DNA of 64,000 nt, taken from Spirochaetaceae bacterium bin103 (lineage in GTDB: Bacteria; Spirochaetota; Spirochaetia; SZUA-6; Bin103). Shown here in pieces: positions 7,578-20,817 of this stretch. Location: contig MPNH01000001.1 in assembly GCA_002238925.1 (NCBI GenBank), forward strand, positions 1 to 64,000, given 5' to 3'. The number at the start of each line of letters is the position of its first letter. The stretch's first letter is position 1. The notes under the pieces are model-generated. The model saw only the letters and a program-made list of their open reading frames with translations. It made no database searches and was not told where the DNA came from. Made by a program: the position numbers and the translations under genes.

Positions 7578-9596
7578 ATGAATTTCCAACAAGACAATGT
7601 TGGGAAACGGGTGCGGAAGGTTGGATGCGATCAGGCGGACAGGCAGGTCGAAGGGACCCATTCGGTCGATCGCACCTCGCCGGAGGTGGTCCATCGGCAG
7701 CGAGATAGCGACCTGGACCTGTACGCGGTGAGAAAGAACACCTACGGCGTAACCAGCCTGCTGAACGCCAAGCGTCTCCTGATGATGTACGGGGATCGGC
7801 TTCTTGTGGTCCACGACACGGACGGCAGGGTGTCCGATCTTCGGGTGGCGGACGAGTACGGCATCTGGACGACGGGGACGACCACCCTGCTAGGGTGGAT
7901 GTCAGATACGGCCGAGCATCTGATCGAAAAGGCCCGGCGGGGGGGCCTTGACCGGGTGGCCCCGCAGCACTGGATCTCCACGCTGAACGCCTTGAACAAG
8001 TTGCAGGAGCCGAGGACGCTTGAAGGCATACGGAAGGAAGCGGCAACAGCTCTCGACCAACTGCGGCGCGACGGCCTGCCCGGGAAGGCGGGGCAGGTAG
8101 TCGCGTGCCCTCCCCATGCGTTGGACGCGAAACTCCAATATATGGGGGTCGCCAACGGAGTGGTGGATCTTCACGCGGGTCGTTTGCTGCCGCCTGAAGA
8201 AGGCCGCGCAGCGTTGCTCACGGTACGTACCCATGTTGAGTTCGATTTGACGGCAACGCACGCGGCCATACAGGGTCTGTTCGCTCACCTGCCGCCTGAA
8301 GTTGAGGCGTGGTGGTGGCGTGTATTTGGCTTCCACCTGCGTGGCCACCCATCGCGCCGGTTCTATGTTGTCGTAGGGCCGAAGAGCGGAGGGAAGAGTA
8401 CTGTGGCAAACGCTCTCGAACGGTGTCTTGGACCGTACATGAGACGACCTGGCGATACGGCACTGGCGCCGACACGTGGTCGCAACGCCGGCCTATCACC
8501 GGAGATGGAGTGTTTCACCGCACCGGTCCGATTGGCGATTTTCGACGAGGTGGCGAACTTGAGGGTCGCAGGCCCGTTACTCAAACGGTTGAGCGGTGAT
8601 GGAGGACAGACCTTCCGCCCGCTGTACCAGGCTGAACGTACGGAACGGGTGACGGCGACGGTGATGTTCATCTGCAACGAGGGATCGGAGCCGCACTTGC
8701 AGCTGAGAGACGAGGCGCTGGCGGACCGTTTCAGACGGCTCCCGTATCCGACGTTGCCAAATCCCGACCCGGGGATGAAAGACACGGTGGAAACGGAAGA
8801 GTTCGCGCGGGCATTGCTTGCCCGGCTGGTGATGGCAGCAGCGTCCGCGACAGCACGCGTGCCGCCCGAAGAACCTGACGACGTGAAGAGGTATACGTTG
8901 GAGCGAGTGTTGGGGAATGTCGACAAAATAGGTGAGTTCGCAGAACGCATTGTTCAGGGAGCAGGAGTCTTGACGGTGGCCGAACTGTGGGCCGGTTGGT
9001 GTGAGCACAACAGAGAGACTGGCAACCCGGATCGAATACAGGAGACCGGCGGAATCTCTAAGCGCAATCTGAGTGGAGTTCTGCGAGAGTACATGCTGGG
9101 CAAACTTCGGGAACCCAAGGTGACGACCGTCAATGGCAAGAACGTACGCGGCTGGCGCGGCTGGACAATGAAGCCGGTCGCGCACCCGCAAAGCGAAGCC
9201 GGAGAGATACGCGGAGGCGTAGCGAGCGTTCCCGCGGGATCGCCAAGGGAGAGGTTCCATCCTGGGAAGTTCTTGGATATAGCGGGGGACAAGACGCAAC
9301 CGCCCGATAGAAGAGAGCGGGCCGTGAAGTGGGCGCGGTTCCTGGAGAGGGGCACGGGGATCGTCTTGCGAAAGACAGCCGAAGAGTTTCTCGACAGTGT
9401 GGGAGACCCGCCCGATAATGGTACGTTGACAGGCAGCGAGACAGGCGACCTGTTTGATGGCATAGATGGCGATGACGTGGGGGAGCAGCTCCCGCGTGGA
9501 TACGACGGCAGGACGGGAAGCGTGACGGACAGGCAGATAGAGGAGTCGCCTGGGAAAGGCAATGCGGCCGGTGCATCCGTGCGAGGTGCTGCGTAG
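7578..9596 (+). CDS. D5-type SF3 helicase (phage/plasmid replication)
   Basis: A 672-residue replicative helicase of the phage/plasmid D5/P4-like superfamily 3 type, expected to unwind DNA at the element's origin. A D5_N-like region (about 60-215, with VANGVVDLHAGRLLPP) is followed by the AAA+ core: Walker A GPKSGGKST (267-275), Walker B RLAIFDEV (318-325) and a sensor-like ICNEGSEPHL segment. A winged-helix part (about 470-540) follows, and then ~130 residues of low-complexity tail. I see no archaeo-eukaryotic primase domain, so this is helicase-only. The ribosome site TAGGAG lies seven bases before the ATG. It is the only plus-strand replication gene of the element and converges with the integrase operon. 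Confidence 0.85.
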   Translation: MNFQQDNVGKRVRKVGCDQADRQVEGTHSVDRTSPEVVHRQRDSDLDLYAVRKNTYGVTSLLNAKRLLMMYGDRLLVVHDTDGRVSDLRVADEYGIWTTGTTTLLGWMSDTAEHLIEKARRGGLDRVAPQHWISTLNALNKLQEPRTLEGIRKEAATALDQLRRDGLPGKAGQVVACPPHALDAKLQYMGVANGVVDLHAGRLLPPEEGRAALLTVRTHVEFDLTATHAAIQGLFAHLPPEVEAWWWRVFGFHLRGHPSRRFYVVVGPKSGGKSTVANALERCLGPYMRRPGDTALAPTRGRNAGLSPEMECFTAPVRLAIFDEVANLRVAGPLLKRLSGDGGQTFRPLYQAERTERVTATVMFICNEGSEPHLQLRDEALADRFRRLPYPTLPNPDPGMKDTVETEEFARALLARLVMAAASATARVPPEEPDDVKRYTLERVLGNVDKIGEFAERIVQGAGVLTVAELWAGWCEHNRETGNPDRIQETGGISKRNLSGVLREYMLGKLREPKVTTVNGKNVRGWRGWTMKPVAHPQSEAGEIRGGVASVPAGSPRERFHPGKFLDIAGDKTQPPDRRERAVKWARFLERGTGIVLRKTAEEFLDSVGDPPDNGTLTGSETGDLFDGIDGDDVGEQLPRGYDGRTGSVTDRQIEESPGKGNAAGASVRGAA

Positions 9597-9796
9597 CGGA
9601 CGCCGCGCGGAGGGCAAAGAAAGGACGCCGGGTTGAAACGATCCCTGGGAGGAGAGTTCGGCGGCTAAGTGGACGAAATCGTCCCTATCAGTAAGCCACG
9701 TTCGTGGGCTCGGCTCAACTTGGTTCGGGCGGTTCGGGCCGGTTCGGAAGCGGGATCGGGTGCGGTATCCTCCAGCAGGTGAGGTGGGTAGACAGC

Positions 9797-9824
9797 TTGA
9801 CATTCGTCGCAGGCCCTCGATAAC
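9797..9824 (+). promoter_or_regulatory. Predicted promoter of the small membrane gene
   Basis: A perfect -35 TTGACA (9797-9802), a 16-bp spacer and GATAAC (9819-9824) lie 20 bp before the ATG of the next gene. The -10 is imperfect. Confidence 0.5.
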
Positions 9825-9843
9825 GTTGTGAGTGGAGGTCGCC

Positions 9844-10065
9844 ATGAGTGAAGCAATCACGGCGATCGCGACCATAACGGCCACGATCATCATCATCGTC
9901 GTCGGAACCGGGCTCCTGCTCGGTAGCAGTCACCGGGTTCCCCTGAGGCACATAGACCACCGCCTCCAGGACATCCGGCTGAAGGCCGCACGGACACACC
10001 ACGAATCCATCGTGGAAGCCGTCGAGCGGTACCTCCGCAAGCACGGGATACACATTCGCTGGTAG
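9844..10065 (+). CDS. Small single-pass membrane protein
   Basis: A 73-residue protein with one strong transmembrane helix (residues 4-27, rich in I/V/T/A) and a charged cytoplasmic tail of about 45 residues ending HGIHIRW. The ATG at 9844 is chosen over 9832 for its GGAGG site seven bases upstream. It has its own promoter and is followed at once by a strong hairpin. Small membrane proteins of this kind are common in phage-like elements; the function is unknown. Two other tiny membrane proteins are encoded in the same element on the opposite strand. Confidence 0.65.
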   Translation: MSEAITAIATITATIIIIVVGTGLLLGSSHRVPLRHIDHRLQDIRLKAARTHHESIVEAVERYLRKHGIHIRW

Positions 10066-10066
10066 G

Positions 10067-10127
10067 AAGGGGAGAGGCGAGTTTTACCGCACCCCGACCC
10101 ACGAGGGGTCCGGATACCTCTCCCCTT
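10067..10127. terminator. Bidirectional hairpin between convergent units
   Basis: A perfect 11-bp stem, AAGGGGAGAGG (10067-10077) with CCTCTCCCCTT (10117-10127), encloses a second ACCCC/GGGGT stem. It sits exactly between the plus-strand unit and the 3' end of the minus-strand integrase operon, where both transcripts would need to stop. There is no long U-tract. Confidence 0.6.
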
Positions 10128-10139
10128 GCATTCTACGTA

Positions 10140-11276
10140 CTACCCGTGCGGGTTGTCGGCCGGTTCGGGAGCGGATGCGGGATCATCCTGCACCGGCGCC
10201 GGAATTGAATCGCCACCCGCTGGCGACAGCGGCGCCGCGAACGGCACGTGTAGCAGTTGGGCGGTGCGCCGCTTGGCTTCATCGGGGCGGCGGTCGTAAC
10301 GCTGGGTGGTGTCGACCGACGAGTGGCCGGCGAGGCCCTGGACGGAGCTGATGTCGGCGCCGGCGTCGAGCAGCTCGCCCACGAAGGAACGGCGCAGGTC
10401 GTGCGGGGTCAGCGGCTTCACGCCGGCCCTTCCGGCCAACTGCCGCAGGCGCAGCAGCACCGCCTGGTCGGTCATGGCGCGCTGTTGGACGTGGCCGCCC
10501 TTGCGTACCGGGCACAGCAGCGCGCCCGGCCAGGAGCCGCGGCGAGCGATCCAGGCTTCGATGGCCTCGCGCCCGCCGGTGGGGCAAAAGACGTTGCGGT
10601 CTTTCCTGCCCTTGCCGTTGCGGATGGTGACCCGGCCGTCGTCGTAGTCGTCGAGCAGCAGTGCTACGGCCTCGCTGCGGCGCAGCCCGCAACCGTACAG
10701 CAGGGCGAGGATGGCCGCGTCACGAGCGCCCGCGGGATCGTCGCCGCAGGCGCGGAACAGCGCGGCAACCTCGCCGGCGTCGACGTGGCGGCCGGCGGGG
10801 AGTGTGTGCGCCTTGACGTTGGGCACATCGGCGACGCGCTCCTTGGTCTCGGCATCGACGAGGCCGAGGCGCCAAGCTTCCTTGATTGTGCCGCGCACTG
10901 CCGAGAGCACGTGGTTGATGGTGGCGGGCTTGGCATCGTCGTCGAGGAGGATCGCGCGCAGGGCGGCGACGTGCTGGTACCGGACCTCGGTCCAATCGAC
11001 TAAGAACGCGCTGGTGGCGAGACCGCCTGTGAAGATCTCGGCTGCCCGGTCGAGGGAACGGCGCAGGCCGCGCCGGCCGACCTCCGAAGCCTTGCCGGCC
11101 AAGTATACGATGGCCGGGTTCTGATCGGGGGAGCCGGGAGCGGCGACGATGGGTACGATCCCGCGCTCGTCGGGAGCGGCCACGATCTCCGTCACCGTGT
11201 GGCTCCGGTACGGGGGGGGGCGGCCGGCGATGGGTCCGTGCCCGGGTTCGTCGGGAGGGGCCACGATCTCCGTCAC
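10140..11276 (-). CDS. Tyrosine recombinase/integrase
   Basis: A site-specific recombinase of the phage integrase (XerC/D-like) family that would insert and excise the element. The N-terminal SAM-like domain spans about 55-150 and the catalytic domain 165-335. All active residues are visible: Arg199 (CGLRRSE), Lys in GKGRKDR (~222-225), His292-x-x-Arg295 (PHDLRR), His318 (GHSS) and nucleophile Tyr327. The GTG start at 11276 overlaps the upstream stop as GTGA and has a GGAGG site. Residues 1-54 contain a 27-residue self-repeat caused by an 81-bp DNA duplication that looks artefactual; the true N-terminus is probably 27 residues shorter. It is the last gene of the long minus-strand operon. Confidence 0.9.
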   Translation of the reverse strand: MTEIVAPPDEPGHGPIAGRPPPYRSHTVTEIVAAPDERGIVPIVAAPGSPDQNPAIVYLAGKASEVGRRGLRRSLDRAAEIFTGGLATSAFLVDWTEVRYQHVAALRAILLDDDAKPATINHVLSAVRGTIKEAWRLGLVDAETKERVADVPNVKAHTLPAGRHVDAGEVAALFRACGDDPAGARDAAILALLYGCGLRRSEAVALLLDDYDDGRVTIRNGKGRKDRNVFCPTGGREAIEAWIARRGSWPGALLCPVRKGGHVQQRAMTDQAVLLRLRQLAGRAGVKPLTPHDLRRSFVGELLDAGADISSVQGLAGHSSVDTTQRYDRRPDEAKRRTAQLLHVPFAAPLSPAGGDSIPAPVQDDPASAPEPADNPHG

Positions 11277-11309
11277 AGTGTGCCTCCGGTACGGTGGGCG
11301 TCGGCCGGC
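11148..11309. repeat. 81-bp imperfect tandem duplication at the integrase start
   Basis: The units at 11148-11228 and 11229-11309 both begin GATGGGT and end GGCCGGC. Unit 1 decays into a G run at its right end; unit 2 has extra G/C changes at its left end. The duplication copies the ribosome site and start codon. Collapsing it leaves the integrase frame intact. Confidence 0.75.
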
Positions 11310-11842
11310 GGCACCTGTCGGCGCGGGATGAGGCCGACGATCTGGTATCCGAGGCGGTCGCGCACGGCGATGCCGGCGTTGTCCAGATTCCAGAATGAGC
11401 AGTCCTCGAACCTATCGAGCGCGTGGGCGACGTAGCGGGCGTCGACGTGGATCTCCGGACAGGCGGCATCGCCGGTGGCGAACACGTCGACCGGAATGGA
11501 ACCGTGGGAGCCGGCGTCGAAGTTGATCCGGTAGGTAGCGACCGGCTCATCGAGCCGGGCACGGATCAGAGGATGCGCTTCGGAAGGAGGGTGAAACGGT
11601 TGCAATCGTTCCACTACGGTCTCGGCGGGCATGCCGGCGTGGAGATATGCGCGGCGCAGGTAGGTGGGGACGGTGCCTCGGAACACGGCACTGCCGTCAC
11701 TCCACCAAGACCCGTCGTCCCCATGGTAGACACAGAGGACGTTGGTGCCGCCGACGTAGGGCGCGAGCCAGCGTCGGCGGTGCCGCCAGGGGAGGCGTGC
11801 GGAATAGAAGCGCCTGGGCTTCCTGTGGTTGGTAGCGAGCAT
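11273..11842 (-). CDS. Hypothetical protein of the element operon
   Basis: A 189-residue protein, unrecognised. The basic N-terminus (residues 1-26, LATNHRKPRRFYSARLPWRH) is followed by aromatic-rich segments (GDDGSWWSDGSAVFRG) and an alpha/beta C-terminal half (DVFATGD...EIHVDARYVAHAL). There is no signal peptide or membrane helix. The ATG at 11842 has AGGAGG nine bases upstream, which rules out the longer frame. Its stop overlaps the integrase GTG as GTGA, so the two are co-translated. A role tied to the integrase, such as an accessory factor, is possible but only from position. Confidence 0.6.
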   Translation of the reverse strand: MLATNHRKPRRFYSARLPWRHRRRWLAPYVGGTNVLCVYHGDDGSWWSDGSAVFRGTVPTYLRRAYLHAGMPAETVVERLQPFHPPSEAHPLIRARLDEPVATYRINFDAGSHGSIPVDVFATGDAACPEIHVDARYVAHALDRFEDCSFWNLDNAGIAVRDRLGYQIVGLIPRRQVPPADAHRTGGTL

Positions 11843-11886
11843 GATCGGTTCCTCCTGTGAGTTCTCGCCCCGGCGGGGGCGGTTTG

Positions 11887-11947
11887 GGTGGCGCGAGGAC
11901 TCGAGCCCCGTACCCGAATCGGGTCGCACACGGTGTTCGTCGCCGCC
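11887..11947 (-). ncRNA. tRNA-like mini structure (d)
   Basis: Read on the minus strand, GGCGGCG pairs with CGCCACC (6 of 7) and directly abuts a 5-bp T-stem (CGGGG/CCTCG) with loop CTCGAGT, one change from the tRNA T-loop consensus. Only 30 nt lie between the 5' acceptor strand and the T-arm, including a strong ACCCG-ATT-CGGGT hairpin, so no full D plus anticodon arms fit. It fills the gap between two operon genes. Confidence 0.5.
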
Positions 11948-11975
11948 AATGCTGGCCTGCGGAACGTTGGACCGC

Positions 11976-12163
11976 TCAGGAGCCGTCGCCGGCATCCTCG
12001 GGCCATCTCCGGCGCAGAAACGGCCGCAGCGTCAGCCGCGCGACCGCCCACACCAGTAGCGCGGGCCGGCCCCCGGGGGGCCGGCCCGCCCCGTCAGCCG
12101 CGCGCCCGCCCACCCCAGTAGCGCGGCCGCCACCAGGGCGGCCGCGCCGATCAGTACCTCCAC
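11976..12163 (-). pseudogene. Tiny membrane protein, frame broken by 62-bp duplication
   Basis: The GTG at 12163 directly follows the upstream TAG and opens VEVLIGAAALVAAALL. The matching end VWAVARLTLRPFLRR...GDGS lies in another frame that closes at 11976. Removing the 62-bp tandem duplication (12031-12092 versus 12093-12154) joins them into a 41-residue protein with one transmembrane helix and a basic tail. This strongly suggests the organism carries the single-copy version. It resembles the other small membrane proteins of the element in size and layout; the function is unknown. Confidence 0.5.
12031..12154. repeat. 62-bp imperfect tandem duplication
   Basis: Units start GTCAGCCGCGCG at 12031 and 12093. 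Unit 1 degenerates into GGCCGGCCCCCGGGGGGCC on its right; unit 2 carries A-to-C changes on its left. The single-copy version gives an intact small gene. Confidence 0.75.
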
Positions 12164-12574
12164 CTACTTGGCGTCCGGAGGCGGGTTGGCCCACGCCGAA
12201 ACGATCAGGGCCGGGGTGTCGTCGACCAGATCGGCCGGCGGCTCGACGTGCGCGGGCGCAGGCGCCACTACGGCGGGCACGCCGTAGCCGTCCACACCGT
12301 ACAGCGCGTCCAGGTCGGTCAACGGCAGGTAGCCGCCCTCGACGAACGCGCGCCCGGCGAGCGGCGCAACGCTGTACGGGGCCGCGGTCGACGGCTCCGC
12401 CGCGAGCGGCGCAACACCGGCGAACTCGCGCAGCGGGGACTGCGCCAGCATGACTTCGACCTCATCGGTGAGATCGGGGTCGACCACATCCCTGATGCCG
12501 CTGCCTCCGGCGCTCATGGCGGCGATGGCAGCGACCAGGGCCACGGCGCTCAACAGAACCGAAAATCGTGTCAT
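12164..12574 (-). CDS. Predicted exported or membrane-anchored protein
   Basis: A 136-residue protein with an N-terminal hydrophobic segment (residues 4-23, SVLLSAVALVAAIAAMSAG) that could be a signal peptide or anchor, followed by an acidic, Pro/Ala-rich region without recognised domains. The ATG at 12574 has AGGAGG seven bases upstream. Its TAG is followed without a gap by the start of a tiny membrane protein. A tRNA-like structure separates it from the ParB-like gene upstream. A surface or envelope role within the element is the only inference possible. Confidence 0.55.
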   Translation of the reverse strand: MTRFSVLLSAVALVAAIAAMSAGGSGIRDVVDPDLTDEVEVMLAQSPLREFAGVAPLAAEPSTAAPYSVAPLAGRAFVEGGYLPLTDLDALYGVDGYGVPAVVAPAPAHVEPPADLVDDTPALIVSAWANPPPDAK

Positions 12575-12627
12575 CGGTTCCTCCTGTGCGGGCAGATTGG
12601 GGGGCGATCATCCCCCGGCCCGCGATA

Positions 12628-12675
12628 GCTGCGCCCGGACTCGAACCGGCGCAGGCGCCCAGGTGCGCGCGCAGC
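12628..12675 (-). ncRNA. tRNA-like mini structure (c)
   Basis: On the minus strand GCTGCG pairs with CGCAGC (6 bp). This abuts a T-arm whose loop, TTCGAGT, matches the tRNA consensus exactly (CCGG/CCGG stem, fifth pair mismatched). Only 19 nt separate the 5' acceptor strand and the T-arm. An alternative local stem TGCG/CGCA around the T-arm competes. It sits between the ParB-like stop and the next ribosome site. Confidence 0.5.
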
Positions 12676-12692
12676 AGGTGCTTCACGCGCAC

Positions 12693-14642
12693 TCAGGACT
12701 CGCGTTCGGGACGGGCGGCATCAAAGCCCTTCGGCAGCCAGCCGGGGTGCGCGCGCATGCGCTTCGTCGCGTCCAGCGCCAACTGTCCCTTCTTCATGTC
12801 CGCCGCGCCGGCCGCCCACTCGTCGCCGAGGTAGGGTCGGCACTCGTCGATGATCTGGTCCTTGCGAAGCTTCGACCAGATGACATCCACGCTCCACACG
12901 TTCTCGTCGACCGCCAGCAGCCGGTCAGCCCACCGGGGCTGCGTCTCCGCCGCGATCGCCGCGTGCATGTCGTAGACGGCATCATCACCGCCGGGATGGT
13001 CGACCAGCAGCCGCGTCACCACGGCGCTCGTCACCAGCGCCTTGCTGTCGGGCGGCAGCGCCCGGTACGCCTCGAACATCTCCCCGATGCTGAGCTGCGG
13101 GTCGATGAACGGCGGGTGCCACGCCGGGTGCTCCAGGTAGGCCTTGATCTCGTCGGAGCCATCGGGCACGCCCAGGCGCGGATTGTGCTTGCGCTCCACC
13201 GCCAGCGGCAGGCCGGGGTAGAAGCCGCGCCCATTGCCGTCGTAGTGGCTCGCGCCGGTGTGCAGTGCCAGGACCATCGAGAACACCAGCGCATCCATCG
13301 CAACCTCCGGCTGCTCGTGCAGGACCGCGCGCAGCACCCCGTTGCGCAGGTTCATGATGTTGTCTTTGAGCTTCTGGCTGTACCCCTTCGGCTTGGGTGG
13401 CGGCTGCTCTCCGGTGTGCGCTGTGCTTGTCGTGGCCGTGCCGCTGGTGGTGGCGGGAGCTTCGCCGGGCATCGGGTCGCCCTTGCGGACCAACCCCTCG
13501 ATGCGCTCAAGCTGGCCGCCGTGGCCGATGCCGATGAGCACGCCGCTCGCCGCCTTCTGTGCCGGCGTGAACGTGCGCTGTTCCACCGCGGCATCTACCG
13601 CGTCGGCCGCCTCGCTCGCCTCGCTCGCCTCGTCCCACTCGCGCTGTTCCTCGGGGTTCAGCTCGTCGTAGTCCAGGCCCTCGGCCTCCCACTTGTTGCC
13701 CAACGCCTCGATCCTGTCCAGGACGGCCTGTTCCTCGGGCGTGGGCTCGCGCCGGTGTCGCTGCGGGTACGTCTGGCGGCACGACTGGCGGAACTTCCAG
13801 GTATCCTGGTCGGCGCTCGTCTCCACCCACTTCCAGCCCTCAGCCAGCACCGCGTCCGCCGCCGCGGCCAGCTTCTCGCGCGCCAGGCGCAGGGCGAGGC
13901 CCGCGTCCTGCAGCACCGCGTAGTCCTGGAACAGCGTCTGTTCGCTCGATCCGCCGGCCTTCGCGTACTCATCGGTGCCGACGAACTGCGCCAGGGGACT
14001 GTCCGAGCGCAGCCGCTCCTCCTGCAGGTGGCGCAGGATGCGGTTGGCGTAGTGTTGCCCGCCGCCGTACGACTCGTCGCTCTCGATCTGTTGCCACACC
14101 TGCATCTGGCGCTCGGTGTCCGGCGTGGTCGCATACGCGCGCGCCGCTTCCTCCAGGATGCGCCCGTCGCGGTACGCCTCCAGGATCGGCCGCGCAAGCT
14201 GGCCCAGGCGCATGCGCCGCTGGACCGTGCTCTGCGGCAGCCCGAAGCGGTTGGCGATGTCTTCCACGGTCGCGCCCTCGTCTGCCAGCCGCTTGAACGC
14301 GACCACCTGGTCCGCCGGGTGCATCGCCACCCGCACCACGTTTTCGGCAAGCGCGGCCTCGGTCGAGTCCACGTCGTCATGCAGGACGCTGCAGCCCACC
14401 GGCGCGTCGGTCGCGATCTCGCCGGCCTCGGCCAGGGCGCGCAGCGCGCGGTAGCGCCGATGGCCGGCGACCACGGACCATGCCTCGTCGTGTCTGCGCA
14501 CCACCAGCGGCTCCAGGAGCCCGTGCGCGGCGATGGAGGCGCGCAGCTCGCGGTCTGCGTCCTCCATCGCCGGCGTGCTGCGCAGGTCGTCGCCGTTGGC
14601 AAGCAGCTTGCTCAACGGCAGGGTGATTGCTTCGTTGTGCAT
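12693..14642 (-). CDS. ParB/Spo0J-like DNA-binding protein
   Basis: A 649-residue ParB-superfamily protein, expected to bind DNA sites and take part in partition or regulation of the element. The N-terminal ParB domain (5-115) contains GHRRYRAL (60-67, the GxRR box of the CTP-binding fold) and AENVVR (99-104). A helix-turn-helix follows (about 125-146, EDIANRFGLPQSTVQRR). The remaining ~500 residues include a charged Glu/Ala-rich middle and a globular C-terminus (DVIWSKLRKDQIIDECRPY). The size is about twice that of chromosomal ParB and matches large plasmid/ICE types. No ParA is seen in the window. The start has a GGGAG site. The neighbours are small membrane proteins and SSB. Confidence 0.82.
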   Translation of the reverse strand: MHNEAITLPLSKLLANGDDLRSTPAMEDADRELRASIAAHGLLEPLVVRRHDEAWSVVAGHRRYRALRALAEAGEIATDAPVGCSVLHDDVDSTEAALAENVVRVAMHPADQVVAFKRLADEGATVEDIANRFGLPQSTVQRRMRLGQLARPILEAYRDGRILEEAARAYATTPDTERQMQVWQQIESDESYGGGQHYANRILRHLQEERLRSDSPLAQFVGTDEYAKAGGSSEQTLFQDYAVLQDAGLALRLAREKLAAAADAVLAEGWKWVETSADQDTWKFRQSCRQTYPQRHRREPTPEEQAVLDRIEALGNKWEAEGLDYDELNPEEQREWDEASEASEAADAVDAAVEQRTFTPAQKAASGVLIGIGHGGQLERIEGLVRKGDPMPGEAPATTSGTATTSTAHTGEQPPPKPKGYSQKLKDNIMNLRNGVLRAVLHEQPEVAMDALVFSMVLALHTGASHYDGNGRGFYPGLPLAVERKHNPRLGVPDGSDEIKAYLEHPAWHPPFIDPQLSIGEMFEAYRALPPDSKALVTSAVVTRLLVDHPGGDDAVYDMHAAIAAETQPRWADRLLAVDENVWSVDVIWSKLRKDQIIDECRPYLGDEWAAGAADMKKGQLALDATKRMRAHPGWLPKGFDAARPERES

Positions 14643-14644
14643 CT

Positions 14645-14773
14645 CTACAGCTCCCGGGCGCGGCGCATGCGCACGCTCCGCAGGCCGGTCGGCGACCGTA
14701 GCCTCTGGCGCAGCGCCGGCACCGCCAGCCCCACCAGCAGCACGGCACCCGCGACGATGACTATTTCGCCCAC
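14645..14773 (-). CDS. Tiny membrane protein
   Basis: A 42-residue protein with one transmembrane helix (EIVIVAGAVLLVGLAVPAL) and a basic tail. The GTG at 14773 lies inside the end of the upstream gene (13-nt overlap) with a perfect GGAGG seven bases before it, and its TAG is two bases from the ParB-like ATG, so it is packed as a translated gene. The layout matches the 41-residue protein at 11976-12163. Function unknown. Confidence 0.55.
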   Translation of the reverse strand: MGEIVIVAGAVLLVGLAVPALRQRLRSPTGLRSVRMRRAREL

Positions 14774-15021
14774 TGGTCTACCTCCGATGCCGGCCCCTCG
14801 TAGCCGGCCATGAACGACTGCGCGTTCGCGGCCAGCTTCAGCGCCGCCACCCGGTCAATCTCCTCGATGCGCACCGCGACCGGCGGCACGCTCGGCAGCG
14901 GCGGCGGCGCCGTGTACGACAGGTCCGGTTCCGGCTCCTGCGGCGACTGCAGGCCGTCCGCAACGAACAGTGCCGCGATCAGAAACGCGAACAGCAGCAC
15001 TCCATAGGTGACACGTCTCAT
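14761..15021 (-). CDS. Small membrane-anchored protein
   Basis: An 86-residue protein with an N-terminal transmembrane helix (residues 5-22, YGVLLFAFLIAALFVADG), a Pro-rich linker (PAPPPLPSVPP-type, 35-46) and a short helical end (EEIDRVAALKLAANAQSF). The start at 15021 is chosen for AGGAGG six bases upstream; the longer frame would run through the tRNA-like structure. The layout resembles small spanin-like or holin-accessory proteins of phages, but I see no decisive feature. It overlaps the tiny membrane gene downstream. Confidence 0.55.
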   Translation of the reverse strand: MRRVTYGVLLFAFLIAALFVADGLQSPQEPEPDLSYTAPPPLPSVPPVAVRIEEIDRVAALKLAANAQSFMAGYEGPASEVDQWAK

Positions 15022-15068
15022 GCGCCCCTCCTGCCCCGGAGCCTTTTTGCTCCCGCGAGCGGTGTAGA

Positions 15069-15123
15069 CGGCGGCCGGGGAGTCGAACCCCGCGCCTGCA
15101 GGTGCGCCCACTGCGCGCCGCCG
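15069..15123 (-). ncRNA. tRNA-like mini structure (b)
   Basis: The clearest of the four. On the minus strand a perfect 7-bp acceptor-like stem (CGGCGGC/GCCGCCG) directly abuts a perfect 5-bp T-stem (CGGGG/CCCCG) with the consensus T-loop TTCGACT. Only 24 nt lie between the 5' acceptor strand and the T-arm (GCGC-AGTGG-GCGC hairpin plus CCTGCAGG), too little for both a D-arm and an anticodon arm. The 3' side continues TCTACACC. It lies between the SSB stop (15137) and the next start (15021). Confidence 0.6.
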
Positions 15124-15136
15124 TGCCATCCGGGCC

Positions 15137-15520
15137 CTAGCTCGCGACGGCCTCGCGCTCCCGCTCCCCGGTTGGGCGGTGAGCGGCGGCCGCTCGACGG
15201 GGCTGGAACTCGACGTGCTCGCACACGATTACGACCTTCGAGCGCGCGTTGCCGTCCGCGTCCTCCCACCGCTCCTGCTTGATACGACCGACCAGGCGCA
15301 CGCCACGGCCCTTGGTCAGGTGCTCAGCGCACACGGTCGCCAGCTTCCCGGCGGTCACGGCCTCAACGAACGACACTTCCTCGGTGCGCTCGCCTTCGAG
15401 CTTGTAGGTGCGCACGGACGACACGACGAGCGTGCACAGCGGCGTGCCGCTCGGCGTGTGGCGCAGCTCGGGATCGCGGCACAGGTTCCCTTCCAAGAGA
15501 ATGCTGTTAAGGTTGTTCAC
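15137..15520 (-). CDS. ssb: Single-stranded DNA-binding protein
   Basis: A 127-residue SSB with a single OB fold: the opening MNNLNSILLEGNLCRDPELR is typical, followed by VSFVEAVTAGKLATVCAEHL and RGVRLVGRIKQERWED, which line the DNA groove in the family. The C-terminus lacks the acidic DDxPF-type tip of cellular SSBs, as in many phage and plasmid versions. The GTG start at 15520 has AAGGAG seven bases upstream. It would coat single-stranded DNA during replication driven by the element's D5 helicase. A tRNA-like structure follows it directly. Confidence 0.88.
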   Translation of the reverse strand: MNNLNSILLEGNLCRDPELRHTPSGTPLCTLVVSSVRTYKLEGERTEEVSFVEAVTAGKLATVCAEHLTKGRGVRLVGRIKQERWEDADGNARSKVVIVCEHVEFQPRRAAAAHRPTGEREREAVAS

Positions 15521-15773
15521 GGGTTCTCCTTGGCCCTACGCGGGGCCGGTCGGGGGCCGCGCCTGGGAATCCTGTCAATCCGTTGGGCGCGGTCCTGGTG
15601 TTCGAGTCGGGCGCAGCTACCGGCTGCGCGAAGCGAGGCACCACGGACGCTGCGGCCGTGGCGATGTGATCGGCATTCGTGTCTATCCTCCCAGTGCCGC
15701 TTGGTTGCGGCGGTCGCGACCGGGCGGGAGTCGGACCCGCCCTTGTGTGGCCTTCCACGGTCGCCGGGGCGTG
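15521..15773. other. Structured operon gap upstream of ssb
   Basis: This 253-bp gap holds tRNA-like structure (a) and a strong hairpin GCGCAGC-TACCG-GCTGCGC (15611-15629). It also holds a possible 19-codon frame, MPITSPRPQRPWCLASRSR, on the minus strand with a GGGAGG site. Reading the plus strand, GTTCGAGTCGGGCGCAGCTA next to the hairpin resembles the T-arm region of structure (c). Confidence 0.4.
15716..15764 (-). ncRNA. tRNA-like mini structure (a)
   Basis: On the minus strand GCGACCG pairs with CGGTCGC (perfect 7 bp) around a small GTGG-AAGG-CCAC hairpin and a T-arm (GCGGG/CCCGC, extendable to 7 bp) with loop TCCGACT, one change from consensus. Only 17 nt lie between the 5' acceptor strand and the T-arm. 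It starts ten bases after the stop of the upstream gene. Confidence 0.5.
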
Positions 15774-16028
15774 TCACTCCCGCCCTCCGGGAGCCTCGTC
15801 GGCGCATTGCCGGCAAGCTTCGTAGCCGGCCAGCGTCGGCAGCAGCACCACGAAGGCGAAGCTGGTCATGTCCGCGGGACCTCCCATCAGCCACGCCGTG
15901 ACCGCCAGCCCATACGCGACCAGGATCGTCGTGGCCTGCCGGTCCGGCGCCTGCACCGTTACGGCACGAAATCGGGCGCCAGAGGCGGCGCCAGCGCGCC
16001 CGGCAGGCGTAGATGGTGCATGGACCAC
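15774..16028 (-). CDS. Small two-helix membrane protein
   Basis: An 84-residue protein with two hydrophobic helices (about 34-50, TTILVAYGLAVTAWLMGG, and 54-69, MTSFAFVVLLPTLAGY) and a Cys-x2-Cys near the C-terminus (ACRQCADE). The GTG at 16028 is a weak start without a good ribosome site; a start overlapping the upstream stop at 16080 lies in another frame. It is within the element operon and may be holin-like by size and topology, which is only a guess. Confidence 0.45.
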   Translation of the reverse strand: MVHAPSTPAGRAGAASGARFRAVTVQAPDRQATTILVAYGLAVTAWLMGGPADMTSFAFVVLLPTLAGYEACRQCADEAPGGRE

Positions 16029-16076
16029 ACCACCCGCGCGCTCCCCGGCGCGTCTGAGAGCCGTCTTTCGCGCCGC

Positions 16077-16409
16077 TCATCGCAACAACCTCGCAATCGG
16101 GATGAACTCGCCGCGAAGCTTCTCGACCTCGCCGGCCAGCGTGCGCAGGTAGGCCGCGTACTGGCGGTGCTCGGCGGCGTGCTCGCGGTGCTCGCGCACC
16201 ATGTCACCGGCGCACAGCCACGCGCCCATCAGCGGCTCCAGGTCGGCCGCGCGCGCCTCGCGCTCGCTCGCCTTGCGTGCCGCCTCGTCCGCCTGATTGC
16301 GCAGATCCTCGGCGGCAACCGCCACGGCCTCGGCACCGGTGCAACCGTCGTCCAGCTTCTCGATGATCGCGTGCGCCCACGCCGGGCCGTACTCGTCCAC
16401 CCGGATCAC
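16077..16409 (-). CDS. Helical hypothetical protein
   Basis: A 110-residue, mostly helical and charged protein (AEDLRNQADEAARKASEREAR is coiled-coil-like). The GTG at 16409 overlaps the upstream stop as GTGA and has GGAGG seven bases before it, which fixes the start; the longer upstream frame is an Arg-rich artefact. There is no membrane segment or known domain. Confidence 0.55.
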   Translation of the reverse strand: MIRVDEYGPAWAHAIIEKLDDGCTGAEAVAVAAEDLRNQADEAARKASEREARAADLEPLMGAWLCAGDMVREHREHAAEHRQYAAYLRTLAGEVEKLRGEFIPIARLLR

Positions 16410-16705
16410 GACGCGCCTCCCGGCGGCAGCTCGGCCACGCGGATGGCCATGTCCAGCAGCACGTCGTTGCCGGCGTCCTCGTCGTTGACGACGGCCGCGA
16501 GATCGACGATGGCGGGGTGGGCGAGCGCGGCGCCGTAGCCGCGCAGCCACACGCTCACGTCGCGCCGGGTGCCGCTGAACAGCGGCGCCGGCTCGTCGTC
16601 GCGCAGCACGTTGTACGCCATGCCGTTGGCGGTCCGGGTCAGGTGCAGCCCGAACGTCGGCGCCGGCGAGTTCGCGATGTAGCTGTCTGCGCCCGCCTTC
16701 AGCAT
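16406..16705 (-). CDS. Hypothetical protein of the element operon
   Basis: A 99-residue protein, probably alpha/beta (SYIANSPAPTFGLHLTRT, RRDVSVWLRGYGAALAH, NDVLLDMAIRVAEL). No family recognised. It overlaps the genes on both sides by four to seven bases, so it is a translated member of the operon. The ATG at 16705 follows a G-rich ribosome-site-like stretch. Confidence 0.5.
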   Translation of the reverse strand: MLKAGADSYIANSPAPTFGLHLTRTANGMAYNVLRDDEPAPLFSGTRRDVSVWLRGYGAALAHPAIVDLAAVVNDEDAGNDVLLDMAIRVAELPPGGAS

Positions 16706-17211
16706 GCCCCCGCCACCCGGATGCCGCGCTGCACGTCCTCGATGCGCCGCCAGATCAGCGCGGCGCCGTCGCGCAGCTTGCGCGCCACGGTCTCGCCGCT
16801 CATCGCCTCGGTGTCATTCCAGTTCGTCACGACGGAGGCGTACATGGCCGGGTGCTTCGGGGTGCGCCCGACCATCGCCTGCGCCGCCGCACACAGCGCG
16901 CGGCTGTAGGCGGAGGCGGCGAACGGGGTCATCGCCCTGGGGTATTGCAGGTTGCCCTCGGCATCCTGGTAGAGCGTGACGAGGCCGGTGCGCACCAGCG
17001 CCGCGCGTACGGCGCCGAGCGCACACCAGCACTGCGCACGCTTCGAGAACGGCGGCACCGGCGCGCCGCGGCCGTTCACGGCATCCGTGCTCCGCGTCCA
17101 GCCGGCATCGACGTAGCCGGCGGCGCGGTCCAGTAGCCGCGCCGCCGCCAAGTCCTTCTCCTTGCTCAGCCGCAGAGCTTCCACGGTCTCCGGGGTCAGC
17201 CCGTCACTCAT
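16699..17211 (-). CDS. Hypothetical protein, DUF6197-like
   Basis: A 170-residue protein. The segment AQCWCALGAVRAAL, followed by an SAYSRALCAAAQAM helix and TNWNDTEAMSGETVARKL, recalls DUF6197-type phage proteins (a Cys-Ala-x-Gly-Ala core and a later N-D motif). Function is unknown for that family. The ATG at 17211 overlaps the upstream stop. It is within the element operon. Confidence 0.5.
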   Translation of the reverse strand: MSDGLTPETVEALRLSKEKDLAAARLLDRAAGYVDAGWTRSTDAVNGRGAPVPPFSKRAQCWCALGAVRAALVRTGLVTLYQDAEGNLQYPRAMTPFAASAYSRALCAAAQAMVGRTPKHPAMYASVVTNWNDTEAMSGETVARKLRDGAALIWRRIEDVQRGIRVAGAC

Positions 17212-17527
17212 AGAAGACCTCCACGAAGTCGTCGGCGTCCACGGTGAACGTGATCGGGTCGACGGGGCGGTTGTCGTCAAAGCGCTCGATGAACGCGACC
17301 GCCTCGGGCGGCAGCACATAGCGCCGCCGCTTGCCGCTGGTATGCAGGTAGCCGGTCACGTCGCCAGCGGTGAAGGTGCACGCTCGCGCCTTCACGTTGG
17401 CGAACCCGGCATCGGCGAGCGAATGCGCCACGGGGCAGTTGCACTCCCGGCTCAACCGGCGGTCCACGGCGCGCTCCCCGGCGGTGATGTGCTTCGCGGT
17501 CAGGTCGACCGGCACCAGCCCGGTCAC
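17204..17527 (-). CDS. Hypothetical protein of the element operon
   Basis: A 107-residue protein starting at GTG 17527, which overlaps the upstream stop as GTGA. It opens with VTGLVPVDLTAKHITAGE, contains CNCPVAHSLADAGF and the segment GDVTGYLHTSGKRRRYVLPP, and ends in an acidic stretch (VDADDFVEVFYE). The pattern 'ID.T..HI..G....C..CP.A.A' is common in phage proteins of unknown function. I assign no role. Confidence 0.55.
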   Translation of the reverse strand: MTGLVPVDLTAKHITAGERAVDRRLSRECNCPVAHSLADAGFANVKARACTFTAGDVTGYLHTSGKRRRYVLPPEAVAFIERFDDNRPVDPITFTVDADDFVEVFYE

Positions 17528-18282
17528 GCGTGCATCCCCCGCGTCCGGCCCGCCACGCCGCACGGCGCGCACAGGGCATCGACGGCCGCGGCCCACTGTT
17601 CCTCGCTCAGAATGCGCCCACCATCCGCCCACGCCTCGCAGGCCGGGCAGGGACCGTTGGTGCAGTCCGGGCACGGCGCATCGTCCTCGGTGTGGTCGAC
17701 GTGGTAGGCGCACACCGCGAAGCCGTAGACCTCGCGCGTGGCCGTGCACCGGCACAGCACGCAGCGCCGCGGCGCAGGCTCAAGCTCGCCGCCGGTGAAC
17801 GTGTCCACCTTCACGCTGCCGGTCGCGTCTACCCGGAACAGCCCATCCTCGGGGCCGTGTGCGCGCCGGTAGTCCTGCGCCGCCTCTACCCGGTCCCGCT
17901 CATCCTTGAACGGCCCGGACAGCTCCGGCTCCACATCGCCCCACACGTTCAGCAGGTACAGCCGCGCCCGGTCCTCGGCAGCCTGCGGCCCGCCTTGGGT
18001 AGCTGCGCGGCCCGCCGCTGCATCGCGCTCGATGTGGTCGATGGCAACCGCCAGATTCTCGGTGTCCTGGCCGCGCTCGCCCAACAGCGACCGCGCCGCG
18101 CGCAGCACCTGCAGGTCACTCACGCGCGGGTCATGCTCCAAGTCGATCTGCACCGGCAGGACCGTGCTCAGCGCATCGCGCAGCCGCTCGGCGTTCTCGC
18201 GGCTCACCAGCACCCGCACGGCAGGCAGGGTAAGAAACACCCCGTCCGCGCCGACCGTCGCTCCTACGTCCACGGCGCGCAT
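17524..18282 (-). CDS. Cys-rich zinc-finger-like hypothetical protein
   Basis: A 252-residue protein. The N-terminal half is alpha/beta (FLTLPAVRVLVSRENAERLR), and the C-terminal third carries many paired cysteines: CVLCRC, CAYH, CPDC, CPAC and CAPC. These could bind one or two zinc ions. The ATG at 18282 overlaps the upstream stop as TGATG. There is no enzymatic motif. It is probably a nucleic-acid- or protein-binding accessory factor of the element, by inference from the zinc-ribbon-like end. Confidence 0.55.
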   Translation of the reverse strand: MRAVDVGATVGADGVFLTLPAVRVLVSRENAERLRDALSTVLPVQIDLEHDPRVSDLQVLRAARSLLGERGQDTENLAVAIDHIERDAAAGRAATQGGPQAAEDRARLYLLNVWGDVEPELSGPFKDERDRVEAAQDYRRAHGPEDGLFRVDATGSVKVDTFTGGELEPAPRRCVLCRCTATREVYGFAVCAYHVDHTEDDAPCPDCTNGPCPACEAWADGGRILSEEQWAAAVDALCAPCGVAGRTRGMHA

Positions 18283-18701
18283 CAGATGCGCCTCCGGGGG
18301 GGAGTCCACCCGCGCGGCATCCGGTCGCCCGGGTCCTGCACGTTCGCGAGGTTGGTCAGGTATTGGTCCTGATGCCGGCGCCACCAGCGGCCTGCGCTGG
18401 CGGCGATCCGCTCGGCATCCCGCCGCGTGGTCGCCCAATGCACCCCGCCACCCGTGAATGTGGCGCTCACCCGGTAGGCGTCGCGCCCGTCGCGCCTGAT
18501 GTCGATGGTCCCTGCCGTGTCGGCAACGCGAGTGTTCCCGCGCTGCCGGCGGTGCGCGACGAGCATCCCGCCGCGCATCCGCCGTGTCATGCGAGCGATG
18601 TCGCCCGGCTTCACCTTCGCCGCCATCAGCTCCCCGCCCCCCCCCCCGCGCCCCCGCGGTGTCAGGCGAGCGATGTCGCCCGGCTTCCCCTTCGCCGCCA
18701 T
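18282..18701 (-). CDS. Small basic protein with duplicated start region
   Basis: A 139-residue basic protein, Arg-rich and possibly nucleic-acid binding (VSATFTGGGVHWATTRRDAERIAASAGRWW). A 75-bp duplication repeats the ribosome site, ATG and first codons (MAAKGKPGDIARLT and MAAKVKPGDIARMT), so the start may be 18701 or 18626. The upstream stop overlaps the 18701 ATG as TGATG. If the duplication is an assembly artefact, the real protein is 25 residues shorter. No domain recognised. Confidence 0.5.
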   Translation of the reverse strand: MAAKGKPGDIARLTPRGRGGGGGELMAAKVKPGDIARMTRRMRGGMLVAHRRQRGNTRVADTAGTIDIRRDGRDAYRVSATFTGGGVHWATTRRDAERIAASAGRWWRRHQDQYLTNLANVQDPGDRMPRGWTPPRRRI

Positions 18702-18733
18702 CAGCTCGCCGCCTCCCGGTCGGGCTCGCCCAA
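18584..18733. repeat. 75-bp imperfect tandem duplication
   Basis: Units begin GTGTCA at 18584 and 18659. Unit 1 collapses into a run of Cs on its right (18637-18647); unit 2 shows extra C/G changes on its left. This is the same signature as at 11.2, 12.1, 47.8 and 62.7 kb. Confidence 0.75.
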
Positions 18734-18961
18734 CAGGTTGGCCCGCACCTGCCGTGAGTAGTCCGCGACCTCGGTCGGCAGGCACGCATCGCAGCGGTCG
18801 AAGTAGGTGACGCTCAGACCGAAGAAGCCGATCCGAGCCTGTCCCACGCTCACCCGGTGTTCGCCGCACTCGGGGCAGACCGGCGCGTCGGCGAACCATC
18901 GCCGCCGCGCCGCGTCCGTGTCCCTGCCCTTGTCGACCGTGGGCATCATCGGCGCCGGCAT
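18701..18961 (-). CDS. Small zinc-ribbon protein
   Basis: An 86-residue protein with two cysteine pairs, CPECGEHR and CDACLP, spaced as in a treble-clef or ribbon zinc site. The end is charged (QVRANLLGEPDRE). The ATG at 18961 overlaps the upstream stop as TGATG. Small zinc-ribbon proteins in phage-like operons often bind nucleic acids; nothing more specific can be said. Confidence 0.55.
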   Translation of the reverse strand: MPAPMMPTVDKGRDTDAARRRWFADAPVCPECGEHRVSVGQARIGFFGLSVTYFDRCDACLPTEVADYSRQVRANLLGEPDREAAS

Positions 18962-19275
18962 CAGCCCCGCGCCTCCGCGAACTCCCACAGGCCCACGGTT
19001 TCAAGCTCAAGGGCTGCGGCCATGATCGCGGCGGGCGACAGGTCGACCTCGTGCGCCTCGTCCTCGGCGGTCAGCGCCGGCAGCTCCTGCGCCATGGCGG
19101 CGCCCCACGGGCGGGTCTCGATCACTTCGAGCAGGCTGCCGGTCGCGACCGGCTCGCCGCCGGCGTTGCCGCGCAGGCACCAATCGGCGAGCGGGCGGGT
19201 GGCGGTGACGACGTGGCCCTCGTCGAGCGGGCCGTCTACGTCGCCGGGTTGAATCCAAAGGCATCTGCCTTCCAT
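18961..19275 (-). CDS. First gene of the element operon, hypothetical
   Basis: A 104-residue acidic protein (MEGRCLWIQPGDVDGPLDEG start; AMAQELPALTAEDEAHEV). The ATG at 19275 has GAGGAGG seven bases upstream. It is preceded by a promoter and an 18-bp palindrome, so it opens the long minus-strand operon that ends with the integrase. First genes under such palindromes are often early or anti-repressor genes, but I see no DNA-binding motif here. Confidence 0.55.
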   Translation of the reverse strand: MEGRCLWIQPGDVDGPLDEGHVVTATRPLADWCLRGNAGGEPVATGSLLEVIETRPWGAAMAQELPALTAEDEAHEVDLSPAAIMAAALELETVGLWEFAEARG

Positions 19276-19354
19276 GCTGTTCCCTCCTCGGTAGCGGGTC
19301 GGGTCGTTCGTTTGGTCACGGTGGCCCGGCCCGCTGCCTCTTCGGAATACCTTC

Positions 19355-19372
19355 TGACAATCTGAATTGTCA
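19355..19372. promoter_or_regulatory. 18-bp palindromic operator
   Basis: TGACAAT-CTGA-ATTGTCA is a perfect 7-bp inverted repeat. It lies just downstream of the -10 of the minus-strand operon promoter and overlaps the -35 of a possible plus-strand promoter, so a bound repressor could control both directions. Confidence 0.6.
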
Positions 19373-19377
19373 TTACT

Positions 19378-19406
19378 ATAATGAACGGTCGTTCCAGAAT
19401 AGTCAA
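19378..19406 (-). promoter_or_regulatory. Operon promoter
   Basis: On the minus strand TTGACT (19406-19401) is followed after 17 bp by CATTAT (19383-19378), about 100 bp before the first gene of the operon. The plus strand also shows CTGACA (19354-19359), a 17-bp spacer and a perfect TATAAT (19377-19382), a possible divergent promoter without an obvious gene. Confidence 0.5.
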
Positions 19407-20128
19407 GCGGCGGCACACAACTTTTTTCGGGCCGTTTCTGCCACCGCAGGCGCTTCTTTCCGCTCCCGGTGCCTCCGCGCCCCTCGCTCGCGTTCCGCAA
19501 GTCAGCACCCACGGGGACCGCATCCGCCGCACGGCGCTCCGCGCTCCCCGGTCAGGTCCGCCCGTGGTGGTGCTGGTCGCGCCGCGCCCGGGTCCGCTTC
19601 CTGCCGATGTGGCCGGCCTCGGTGCCCGGCGGGTGGTCGCTGGTGGTGTCTCGGGCCGCCCCAGGCGACGCTCAGACTGCGGTACAGCGCGCTGGCGCAC
19701 CGCTCGCAGCTCGATTCGGCCCGCCGCGCAAGCTACCGGCAGCCACGACGGCCGCCGGTAGCCGCTCCACTCGGCGCAGAAAGAGCCTCGCCACGCGCCG
19801 CATGGCCGGCCGGCACCGTGCGCCACCTACCTGCAGCCCGGTTTCGCCCTCGACGAGGCATCCGGCAGCCACGATCCGCACCCGGCCGCCCGGCTCAGGG
19901 GTGGCGTGACCGGTCGGCCCGCCCGCTCAGGCGCTCATCCGCTGCCCGATCAGCTCTCGCCACTCATCGCTGCGCCCTCGGTCAGCCTCGACGCACCGTC
20001 CTTCGGCCCGCTGGCGGGTCGCCAGACGCCTCACCAGCCGCCACGACCGGCCCGCGGGTCCCGAGCCCGGCCCGCCCCGCACCCCCGCTCAGTTCCCGCC
20101 CGCCCCTGCACACGCGCGGGACCTTTCA

Positions 20129-20259
20129 CGCTTACGCCCACGCAGAAAATTGGAGGGGGGAATCCAGGGAAGTGAGAGATGGGACCCGCTTACGTCTACA
20201 CAGAAAATCAGGGTGCGAAATTCTGAGGATGGGTCCCGCCAGCCGAGGATGGGTCCCGC
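20129..20259 (+). repeat. Iteron-like direct repeats
   Basis: CGCTTACG-C/T-C-C/T-AC-G/A-CAGAAAAT occurs at 20129-20150 and 20187-20208 (58-bp period). GAGGATGGGTCCCGC occurs at 20225-20239 and 20245-20259 (20-bp period), with a related GAGATGGGACCCGC at 20175-20188. Related A-rich GAAAA-TTGGAG blocks recur at 20141, 20267 and 20370. Confidence 0.55.
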
Positions 20260-20653: not shown

Positions 20654-20690
20654 GCGTCGAAGCTGGAACCGCGAGCGTCGAAGCTGGAAC
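20654..20690 (+). repeat. Short tandem repeat
   Basis: GCGTCGAAGCTGGAAC appears at 20654-20669 and again at 20675-20690 (21-bp period), at the left edge of the IS21 remnant. Confidence 0.6.
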
Positions 20691-20817
20691 ACGGTCACGG
20701 GTACCGCTTGCGGCGGCGCTTACTGCGCTTAGGCGCTACCCTGTCGTGCCTCGTAGGCAGCGAAGCGCGCGGCCGTCGGCAGCAAACACAGCCTCAAGTT
20801 CGCTATGATGAGGGCGC

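Follow-up and report, generated by a model that had tools for sequence, protein, structure and literature searches.

tRNA mimics as candidate transcript-processing signals in the gene gaps of a spirochaete integrative element and of DNA phages

Introduction

Punctuation of transcripts by tRNAs is usually thought to be mitochondrial, and tRNA mimicry is associated with RNA viruses and with a small number of long non-coding RNAs (lncRNAs). The mimics mascRNA and menRNA (Rfam RF01684) are released from MALAT1/NEAT1 by ribonucleases P and Z (RNase P and RNase Z). RiboJ-type insulators, which are engineered, combine a self-cleaving ribozyme with a hairpin before the Shine-Dalgarno sequence (SD). 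Two D-loop guanosines that form the elbow are described as crucial for the recognition of mascRNA by RNase P and RNase Z (PMC11693755). Model substrates reduced to the acceptor stem plus the T stem and its loop are cleaved by RNase P, which is also reported to cut polycistronic mRNA and phage C4 RNA; its sites in bacterial and phage RNAs include the his operon mRNA, the C4 RNA of phages P1/P7 and T4 gene 32 (PMC11143913). Here we analyze four tRNA-like elements, named A to D, in the first 64,000 nucleotides (hereafter the window) of contig MPNH01000001.1 from Spirochaetaceae bacterium bin103 (GCA_002238925.1). They belong to a minus-strand operon, running from about 17.3 kb to 10.1 kb of the window, that is part of an integrative element and in which the small genes mostly overlap. 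An original prediction, made from the letters of the DNA, had described four armless tRNA-like structures in the gaps of this operon and proposed that they act as processing signals or as decoys or stabilizers.

Results

Structure of the Elements and Layout of the Gaps

All four sizeable gaps between consecutive same-strand open reading frames (ORFs) of the operon hold a tRNA-shaped element (Table 1), on the transcribed strand and with the acceptor stacked on the T arm, where the original prediction had placed them. The T arm, with a TTCRANY-type loop, sits flush on the acceptor, and both stems are perfectly paired in A, B and C; the departures in the loop are a C at position 55 in A and a C at position 54 in D. 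Elements A, B and C have a 4-bp D arm directly 3' of the acceptor, with loops (AAGG, AGTGG and ACCTGG) ending in GG, and no anticodon arm. Element D, the weakest of the four with one acceptor mismatch, is reversed, as it has an anticodon-like hairpin with a 3-nt loop and no clear D arm. The earlier term armless is inexact, since three of the four elements keep the D arm and lack the anticodon arm alone. None of the four has an anticodon arm with a 7-nt loop, and none encodes CCA after the acceptor, which is also the case for most host tRNAs.

Each gap corresponds to one module with the order stop codon, tRNA-like element, hairpin, SD and start codon. The tRNA-like part starts 9, 13, 17 or 28 nt past the upstream stop; the hairpin, whose sequence varies from gap to gap, begins approximately 4-15 nt past the acceptor and is followed by a GGAGG-type SD. 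The half of the module made of hairpin and SD had been overlooked previously. Neither a sigma-70-like promoter nor a U-tailed terminator was found in the operon region, with zero terminator-like sites at window positions 11500-16100.

As a chance baseline, 40 dinucleotide-shuffled windows were scanned on both strands. A descriptor made of an acceptor, a D arm with GG and a T arm gave a mean of 0.3 and a maximum of 2 matches per shuffled 64 kb, whereas in the window three matches, each in a gap, lay on a single strand in a stretch of 3.1 kb, and one stray match was at 62843. Element A folded alone into the drawn structure as its minimum free energy (MFE) fold, with a z-score of -3.6. In an Rfam scan of window positions 9000-22000, the best family for B and D was RF01684, the mascRNA/menRNA tRNA mimics. 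This model ranked B first (E 0.006) and D second (E 0.008) in the 4.78 Mb genome, above real tRNAs, at 26.7 and 26.3 bits against a gathering score of 42.5 bits. No tRNA was detected in the window by ARAGORN or by RF00005 at gathering score, and none of the elements closely resembles a host tRNA. For transfer-messenger RNA (tmRNA), ARAGORN lists no gene in the window and RF00023 was not reported either; no riboswitch family was among the Rfam matches up to E 10 at 9000-22000. The genome was also searched for further copies with RF00005 and RF01684, and the other RF01684 matches inspected were tRNAs or coding-like DNA.

Table 1. Features of the operon and its surroundings in the window. T loops are in square brackets.
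Feature	Position	Strand	Description
Element A	15716..15764	-	GCGACC GTGG-AAGG-CCAC ACAA GGGCGGG[TCCGACT]CCCGCCC GGTCGC; acceptor 6 bp, T stem 7 bp
Hairpin after A	15696..15711	-	GCCGC-AACCAA-GCGGC; SD GGGAGGA ~15692-15686, ATG ~15676
Element B	15069..15123	-	CGGCGGC GCGC-AGTGG-GCGC ACCTGCAGGCG CGGGG[TTCGACT]CCCCG GCCGCCG; acceptor 7 bp, T stem 5 bp
Hairpin after B	15038..15053	-	GGAGC-AAAAAG-GCTCC; SD ~15032-15027, ATG 15021
Element C	12628..12675	-	GCTGCGC GCGC-ACCTGG-GCGC CTGCG CCGG[TTCGAGT]CCGG GCGCAGC; acceptor 7 bp, T stem 4 bp
Hairpin after C	12588..12623	-	GCGGGC...GCCCGC, z-score -3.3; SD ~12585-12580, ATG 12574
Element D	11887..11947	-	GGCGGCG ... CCCG-ATT-CGGG ... CGGGG[CTCGAGT]CCTCG CGCCACC; acceptor 6/7 bp, T stem 5 bp
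Hairpin after D	11866..11881	-	CGCCCC-CGCC-GGGGCG; SD ~11856-11851, ATG 11842
SSB gene	15137..15520	-	between elements A and B; Pfam PF00436, E 1.7e-23
ParB-like gene	12693..14642	-	between elements B and C; Pfam PF17762 and PF02195; paralog in C47
Tyrosine integrase	10140..11276	-	operon end; Pfam PF00589, E 3e-30; paralogs on C61, C47 and C68
CBASS set	22874-27710	+	SMODS/DncV-like nucleotidyltransferase, ThiF-domain protein, HNH-SAVED protein (Pfam)
Group II intron D1-D4 match	27934-28103	+	RF02003, 57 bits; directly after CBASS effector
C-5 cytosine methylase gene	29213-30445		downstream of Group II intron match

Copies in the Same Genome

A second, clearly diverged copy of the integrative element, on contig C47, has a ParB with 67% protein identity and neighboring DNA with 70-84% identity. 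Its gaps hold A, B and C at equivalent places, and their stems are almost unchanged even though DNA identity in the ParB gene beside them is no more than 75%, in agreement with the earlier claim of conserved structure and not copied DNA. Element A (L006 11614-11661) shows one substitution and one indel compared with the window. Of the five differences in C, three are in the linker and none in the stems; the other two, at positions 57 and 59, turn the T loop TTCGAGT into TTCAAAT. In element B, a single acceptor pair differs (G-C to G-U), and 15 inserted nt make up a complete anticodon-like hairpin; it is called tRNA-Pro(UGG) by ARAGORN only (L006 10956-11025, minus strand). That call has a 13-nt loop between the strands CCCGT/ACGGG and stands as a warning for automatic annotation.

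Gap D of C47 (L006 7313-7391) has a different sequence. The unconstrained fold of 281 nt contains a cloverleaf with a 7-bp acceptor, the D arm GCAC-GCCGG-GTGC, a long anticodon-like arm and a T arm. Because its T loop, ATCGTCT, is not canonical, this gap likely, rather than certainly, holds a tRNA-like element. Such an element of quite different sequence also fits conservation of structure, as do the strong compensatory changes of the phage elements described below.

In a third copy of A, on contig C80 (L178 9015-9064), the T loop is the canonical TTCGACT and the T stem is bulged. Contig C89 (L008 922-993) carries a full tRNA-Gly(UCC) form, recognized as a tRNA cloverleaf and followed by element A's hairpin and SD; the host has a separate, normal tRNA-Gly(UCC). 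T-loop differences among copies are confined to positions 55, 57 and 59. At position 55 one A copy regains the canonical T, and positions 57 and 59 vary in real tRNAs.

Contigs C61, C68, C80 and C89 of the same genome hold additional copies of the integrative element that are degraded or partial, and two integrase copies have an in-frame stop. Between element A and the SSB gene, the copies (window 15530-15690, minus strand; L006; L178) conserve several hairpins. A short ORF start (ATG CCG ATC ...) is found in this stretch with a frame that differs among copies, and instead of a gene the stretch may represent a structured leader.

Viral Contigs

The integrative element was not found elsewhere, save in one near-identical contig (L009) of a metagenome-assembled genome, and its own ParB type was limited to this genome among 395 genomes of the class. 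ParB-like relatives in other taxa were distant homologs with no such modules beside them. Searched as a sequence, element A gave three copies, all in this genome, and a few 3-mismatch matches elsewhere without the structure. A pattern of T loop and SD applied to 118 related genomes returned mostly noise, though the C80 copy was recovered, and the pattern of the hairpin after A matched an unrelated site in viruses.

A search with the SSB protein led to the viral contig L225, in which a tRNA-like element follows SSB. It reads TAGGCGC-TTACCGCT-CGCCGG[TTCAACT]CCGGCG-GCGCCTA, then hairpin AGCTTC-GTAT-GAAGCT, SD and ATG. Two pattern scans of viral contigs yielded 240 distinct sites, 133 of which were tRNAs according to ARAGORN; the pattern required a T arm followed by SD and ATG, so association with starts is selected in this set. 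Of the 102 non-tRNA sites with enough flank, 30 had an acceptor/T stack of at least 12 bp with a middle of at most 45 nt, compared to 4.7 expected when upstream regions were swapped (100 trials, maximum 12), and 14 had a stack of at least 13 bp (1.7 expected). All 14 middles of at most 20 nt contained GG, against a mean of 10.3 after shuffling (p 0.006). Elsewhere in these loci, outside the sites found by the pattern, there were 21 further matches, all with GG, versus one for a reversed-loop control. These unselected matches associate weakly with starts (4/21 versus 6.5% of random positions).

Several loci have arrays on one strand, with ten elements in L330, four or five in L289 and three each in L316 and L322. 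The two elements of L228 have wholly different acceptors (GCGGTT/AACCGC and AGCGAC/GTCGCT) and a conserved leader ahead. This leader, CCCTGTTGG(A/T)TGG on the minus strand, precedes four gaps of L228, two of them with no recognizable T arm. Direct searches of named phages with the elements of L280 and L289 gave no match. At L241 965-1042 (plus strand) and L270 4460-4537 (minus strand), the 5' part of the element is similar to the beginning of tmRNA (GTGAATGGTTTCGA, GTGACTAGGT). Both a T arm and an acceptor are present, but there is almost no mRNA-like domain; these are possibly miniature tmRNA-like RNAs.

Cultured Streptomyces Phages

L330 turned out to be related to Camvirus, a genus of Streptomyces phages with cultured members. 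In the stretches examined of each phage genome, the strict descriptor found 40-nt elements without an anticodon arm between early genes, seven in Joe, nine in phiCAM, seven in Sitrop and eight in Amela, and none on the opposite strand. A covariance model, R1 (5 bp, 11-nt GG linker, 6 bp and TTCGAGT), adds one or two per phage. The seven elements of Joe (47298-47337, 46584-46623, 45941-45980, 45133-45172, 44603-44642, 43738-43777 and 43057-43096) are all intergenic and end 33-51 nt before the next start; six of them start 6-15 nt past the upstream stop. The hairpin-then-SD tail is common to the window and the phages. No feature is annotated at the element sites in the phage records listed, and one Sitrop element is annotated as part of a tRNA-Arg. 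For Kamino, a Camvirus relative, no tRNA genes were reported (PMC11536984). L322, an otherwise unrelated virus, matches these phages solely at the element, and L289 matches phiCAM and Joe over short patches only, about 1% of the query. The candidate classical relative phiC31 has zero elements in the 35 kb scanned. Matches in enterobacterial phages covered T arms of just 19-20 nt, most of which belong to annotated tRNA-Lys genes, and we set them aside. Weaker unannotated matches were seen in phages of other actinobacterial hosts, namely Gordonia phage Aleemily (81839-81877), Mycobacterium phage Send513 (38602-38638) and Microbacterium phage Wolfstar (1267-1300).

Forty phage elements, 29 of them distinct, were aligned gap-free. 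We scored the acceptor (5 bp), the T stem (6 bp), the pair 7-13 closing the D loop and two pairs between linker and T loop (14-29 and 15-28). Paired cells amounted to 99.8%, compared to 77.4% when shuffled, and the covariation score was 0.567 against 0.139 +/- 0.018 (0/500 shuffles). Both sides changed in 9 of the 14 pairs, including the D pair 7-13, which alternates between C-G and G-C, and the D-linker/T-loop pair 14-29; the linker/T-loop pair is seen as A-U, G-C and C-G. As the phage sequences are related, these counts of changes are not independent events. The D and linker/T-loop pairs were first noticed on this alignment and then used to count; slid partners nonetheless fail, reaching at most 0.10. 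Judged from the aligned sequences, the phage element is an RNA with an elbow and not a DNA site; no Rfam family covers this RNA.

Genomic Context

The host encodes an RNase Z gene, above the family cut-off. Next to the integrative-element operon, the window has a set of genes for an anti-phage defense of the CBASS type (cyclic oligonucleotide-based anti-phage signaling system), identified with Pfam and listed in Table 1 with the features downstream of it.

Discussion

The structure of these elements is well supported, and their position, conservation and recurrence, as well as covariation in the phage form, were observed. We consider that the modules are probably excision signals for RNase P and RNase Z, splitting the operon transcript into separately stable messages headed by hairpins. 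An excision signal is the best explanation because the features used by both enzymes are kept, because the elements lie between stop codon and SD, and because the hairpin is what would become the next 5' end. Together with the host RNase Z and the SD behind the hairpin, this makes the processing signal, or tRNA punctuation, the best supported of the functions proposed in the original prediction; cleavage itself, with its effects on stability and translation, is what we infer. The mimic retains the requirements of the two enzymes, which are an acceptor/T-stem stack of 11-13 bp, a T loop, a D-loop GG for the elbow and no encoded CCA, and has lost features required of a working tRNA. Cutting by RNase P at its 5' end would trim the upstream message just beyond the stop codon, while RNase Z, at its 3' end, would leave a downstream message headed by a stem-loop. 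This 5' stem-loop would shield the message while the SD stays open. A single long transcript would thus become separate messages, each stable by itself.

Several observations weigh against this interpretation. In isolation, B, C and D have competing folds, and the energies of B and C are not unusually low for their composition. Since the window elements have just two to three copies, covariation among them is nearly absent, and what is seen is conservation, not compensation; the compensation looked for among homologues is strong in the phage-type elements only. With 11 bp, the stack of the phage elements has one pair fewer than that of a tRNA, which has 12. The downstream hairpin is clear in most modules, not all, and in about half of the mixed viral set; downstream segments were in the best 5% of shuffles in 15 of 40 phage cases and 5 of 8 host cases. 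Finally, the elements of the window and of the phages are linked by design only and do not form one sequence family: with model R1, for which E-values are rough, B reached 20.0 bits (E-value 0.09 for 384 kb and 1.05 for the whole genome), and A, C and D were unmatched.

The elements could instead be tRNA genes decaying in the gaps and shedding their anticodon arms with no new function. The near-complete tRNA-Gly(UCC) of C89 and the tRNA-Pro(UGG) call for B in C47 point that way, and phages often carry tRNA genes; the viral loci, which were selected for their T arms, have 810 in 2.1 Mb. Decay, however, should break the stems first, yet these are the best kept part: between the window and C47, the roughly 96 paired nt of A to C differ by a single change, on one side of a pair, where neighboring DNA diverges by 16-30%. 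The uniform 40-nt length and covariation of the Streptomyces-phage elements contradict decay, and no element is closely like a host tRNA; we regard decay as unlikely. Decidedly unlikely are transcription terminators or attenuators, stable hairpins that would end transcription without a U tail. G+C-rich hairpins do lie immediately past stop codons, and the early genes of actinophage phiC31 reportedly have terminators without U tails. Nevertheless, phiC31 lacks these elements in the 35 kb scanned, and no U tract accompanies the hairpins: the window operon has no terminator site and Joe a single unrelated one. A terminator needs neither the T loop, the GG linker nor the D/T-loop pair, and the 33-51 nt before the next start leave little room for a new promoter. 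Somewhat less probable again is a tRNA-shaped cis-regulator similar to the yjdF riboswitch, which would sense a ligand or protein and gate translation of the next gene. The elements directly precede an SD, and a riboswitch with a tRNA-like fold has been described (PMC9142559). On the other hand, within one genome the same element stands ahead of many genes that are unrelated to each other, beyond the elbow there is no evident conserved pocket for a ligand, and an informal look revealed no systematic alternative fold hiding the SD.

The decoy or stabilizer role of the original prediction found no support in this analysis. Excised, stable mini-tRNAs might act in trans, titrating RNA-binding proteins, anticodon nucleases or the enzymes of tRNA metabolism as decoys or sponges, as the many copies per phage and the release of mascRNA as a stable RNA would allow, and an RNA with no anticodon loop would offer anticodon nucleases no target. 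A decoy, though, needs neither a place between stop and SD in every gap nor a hairpin and SD behind it, and one strong locus would suffice, which makes this role very improbable. Hardly tenable is the idea that the elements are palindromic DNA sites for ParB binding, recombination or packaging. Their T arms are near-palindromic around TCGA and a ParB-like gene is present, but the change from TTCGAGT to TTCAAAT in element C of C47 breaks the palindrome and keeps the T loop. The stems also covary, and the phage elements are strictly on one strand, between genes.

Returning to the excision signal, the absence of a described case in a bacterial mobile element, as originally stated, still stands as far as open-licence papers go, subscription journals being mostly outside the search; older work on terminators or repeats of actinophage early genes may already describe these sequences by another name. 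There is about an even chance that these elements represent an undescribed class of bacterial expression signals, in which mimics without an anticodon arm serve as repeated, one-per-gap insulators in phages and integrative elements, borrowing the host RNase P and RNase Z to make one early transcript into several messages capped by hairpins. Lacking an anticodon arm, they may also be immune to host anticodon nucleases. The C89 form and element B of C47 look like stages from tRNA gene to device, and the simplest reading would be that the device evolved repeatedly from tRNA genes. If cleavage occurs as proposed, long phage operons would give messages of differing stability without internal promoters, and the elements would be natural insulators that help to define the minimal tRNA part needed by RNase P and RNase Z.

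The same design is widespread: it recurs in phages with DNA genomes as well as in integrative elements of bacteria, both as arrays and in a minimal form of 40 nt. Like known bacterial and phage RNase P sites, the elements are non-tRNA RNAs in which a cut by RNase P is expected; those sites are single and of varied structure, whereas a tRNA-elbow element is repeated here between genes. With the tRNA-like domain of tmRNA they share an acceptor and T arm, a reduced D arm and the absence of an anticodon arm, but the window elements have no mRNA-like domain or tag reading frame. The layout of cut, hairpin and SD is that of RiboJ-type insulators, which cleave themselves, while host enzymes would cut the tRNA mimic. 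As in mascRNA and menRNA, an acceptor and T arm are combined with a small D arm with GG and an altered anticodon arm; the setting of those RNAs is a vertebrate lncRNA, with one per transcript forming the RNA 3' end, whereas here a bacterial operon is punctuated. As in mitochondrial tRNA punctuation, tRNA-shaped signals lie between ORFs and cuts are expected at both ends; mitochondria use working tRNAs, whereas a hairpin and an SD come after these elements, in which the anticodon arm is lacking. By analogy, the window elements would work like mascRNA and like mitochondrial punctuation, as members of neither.

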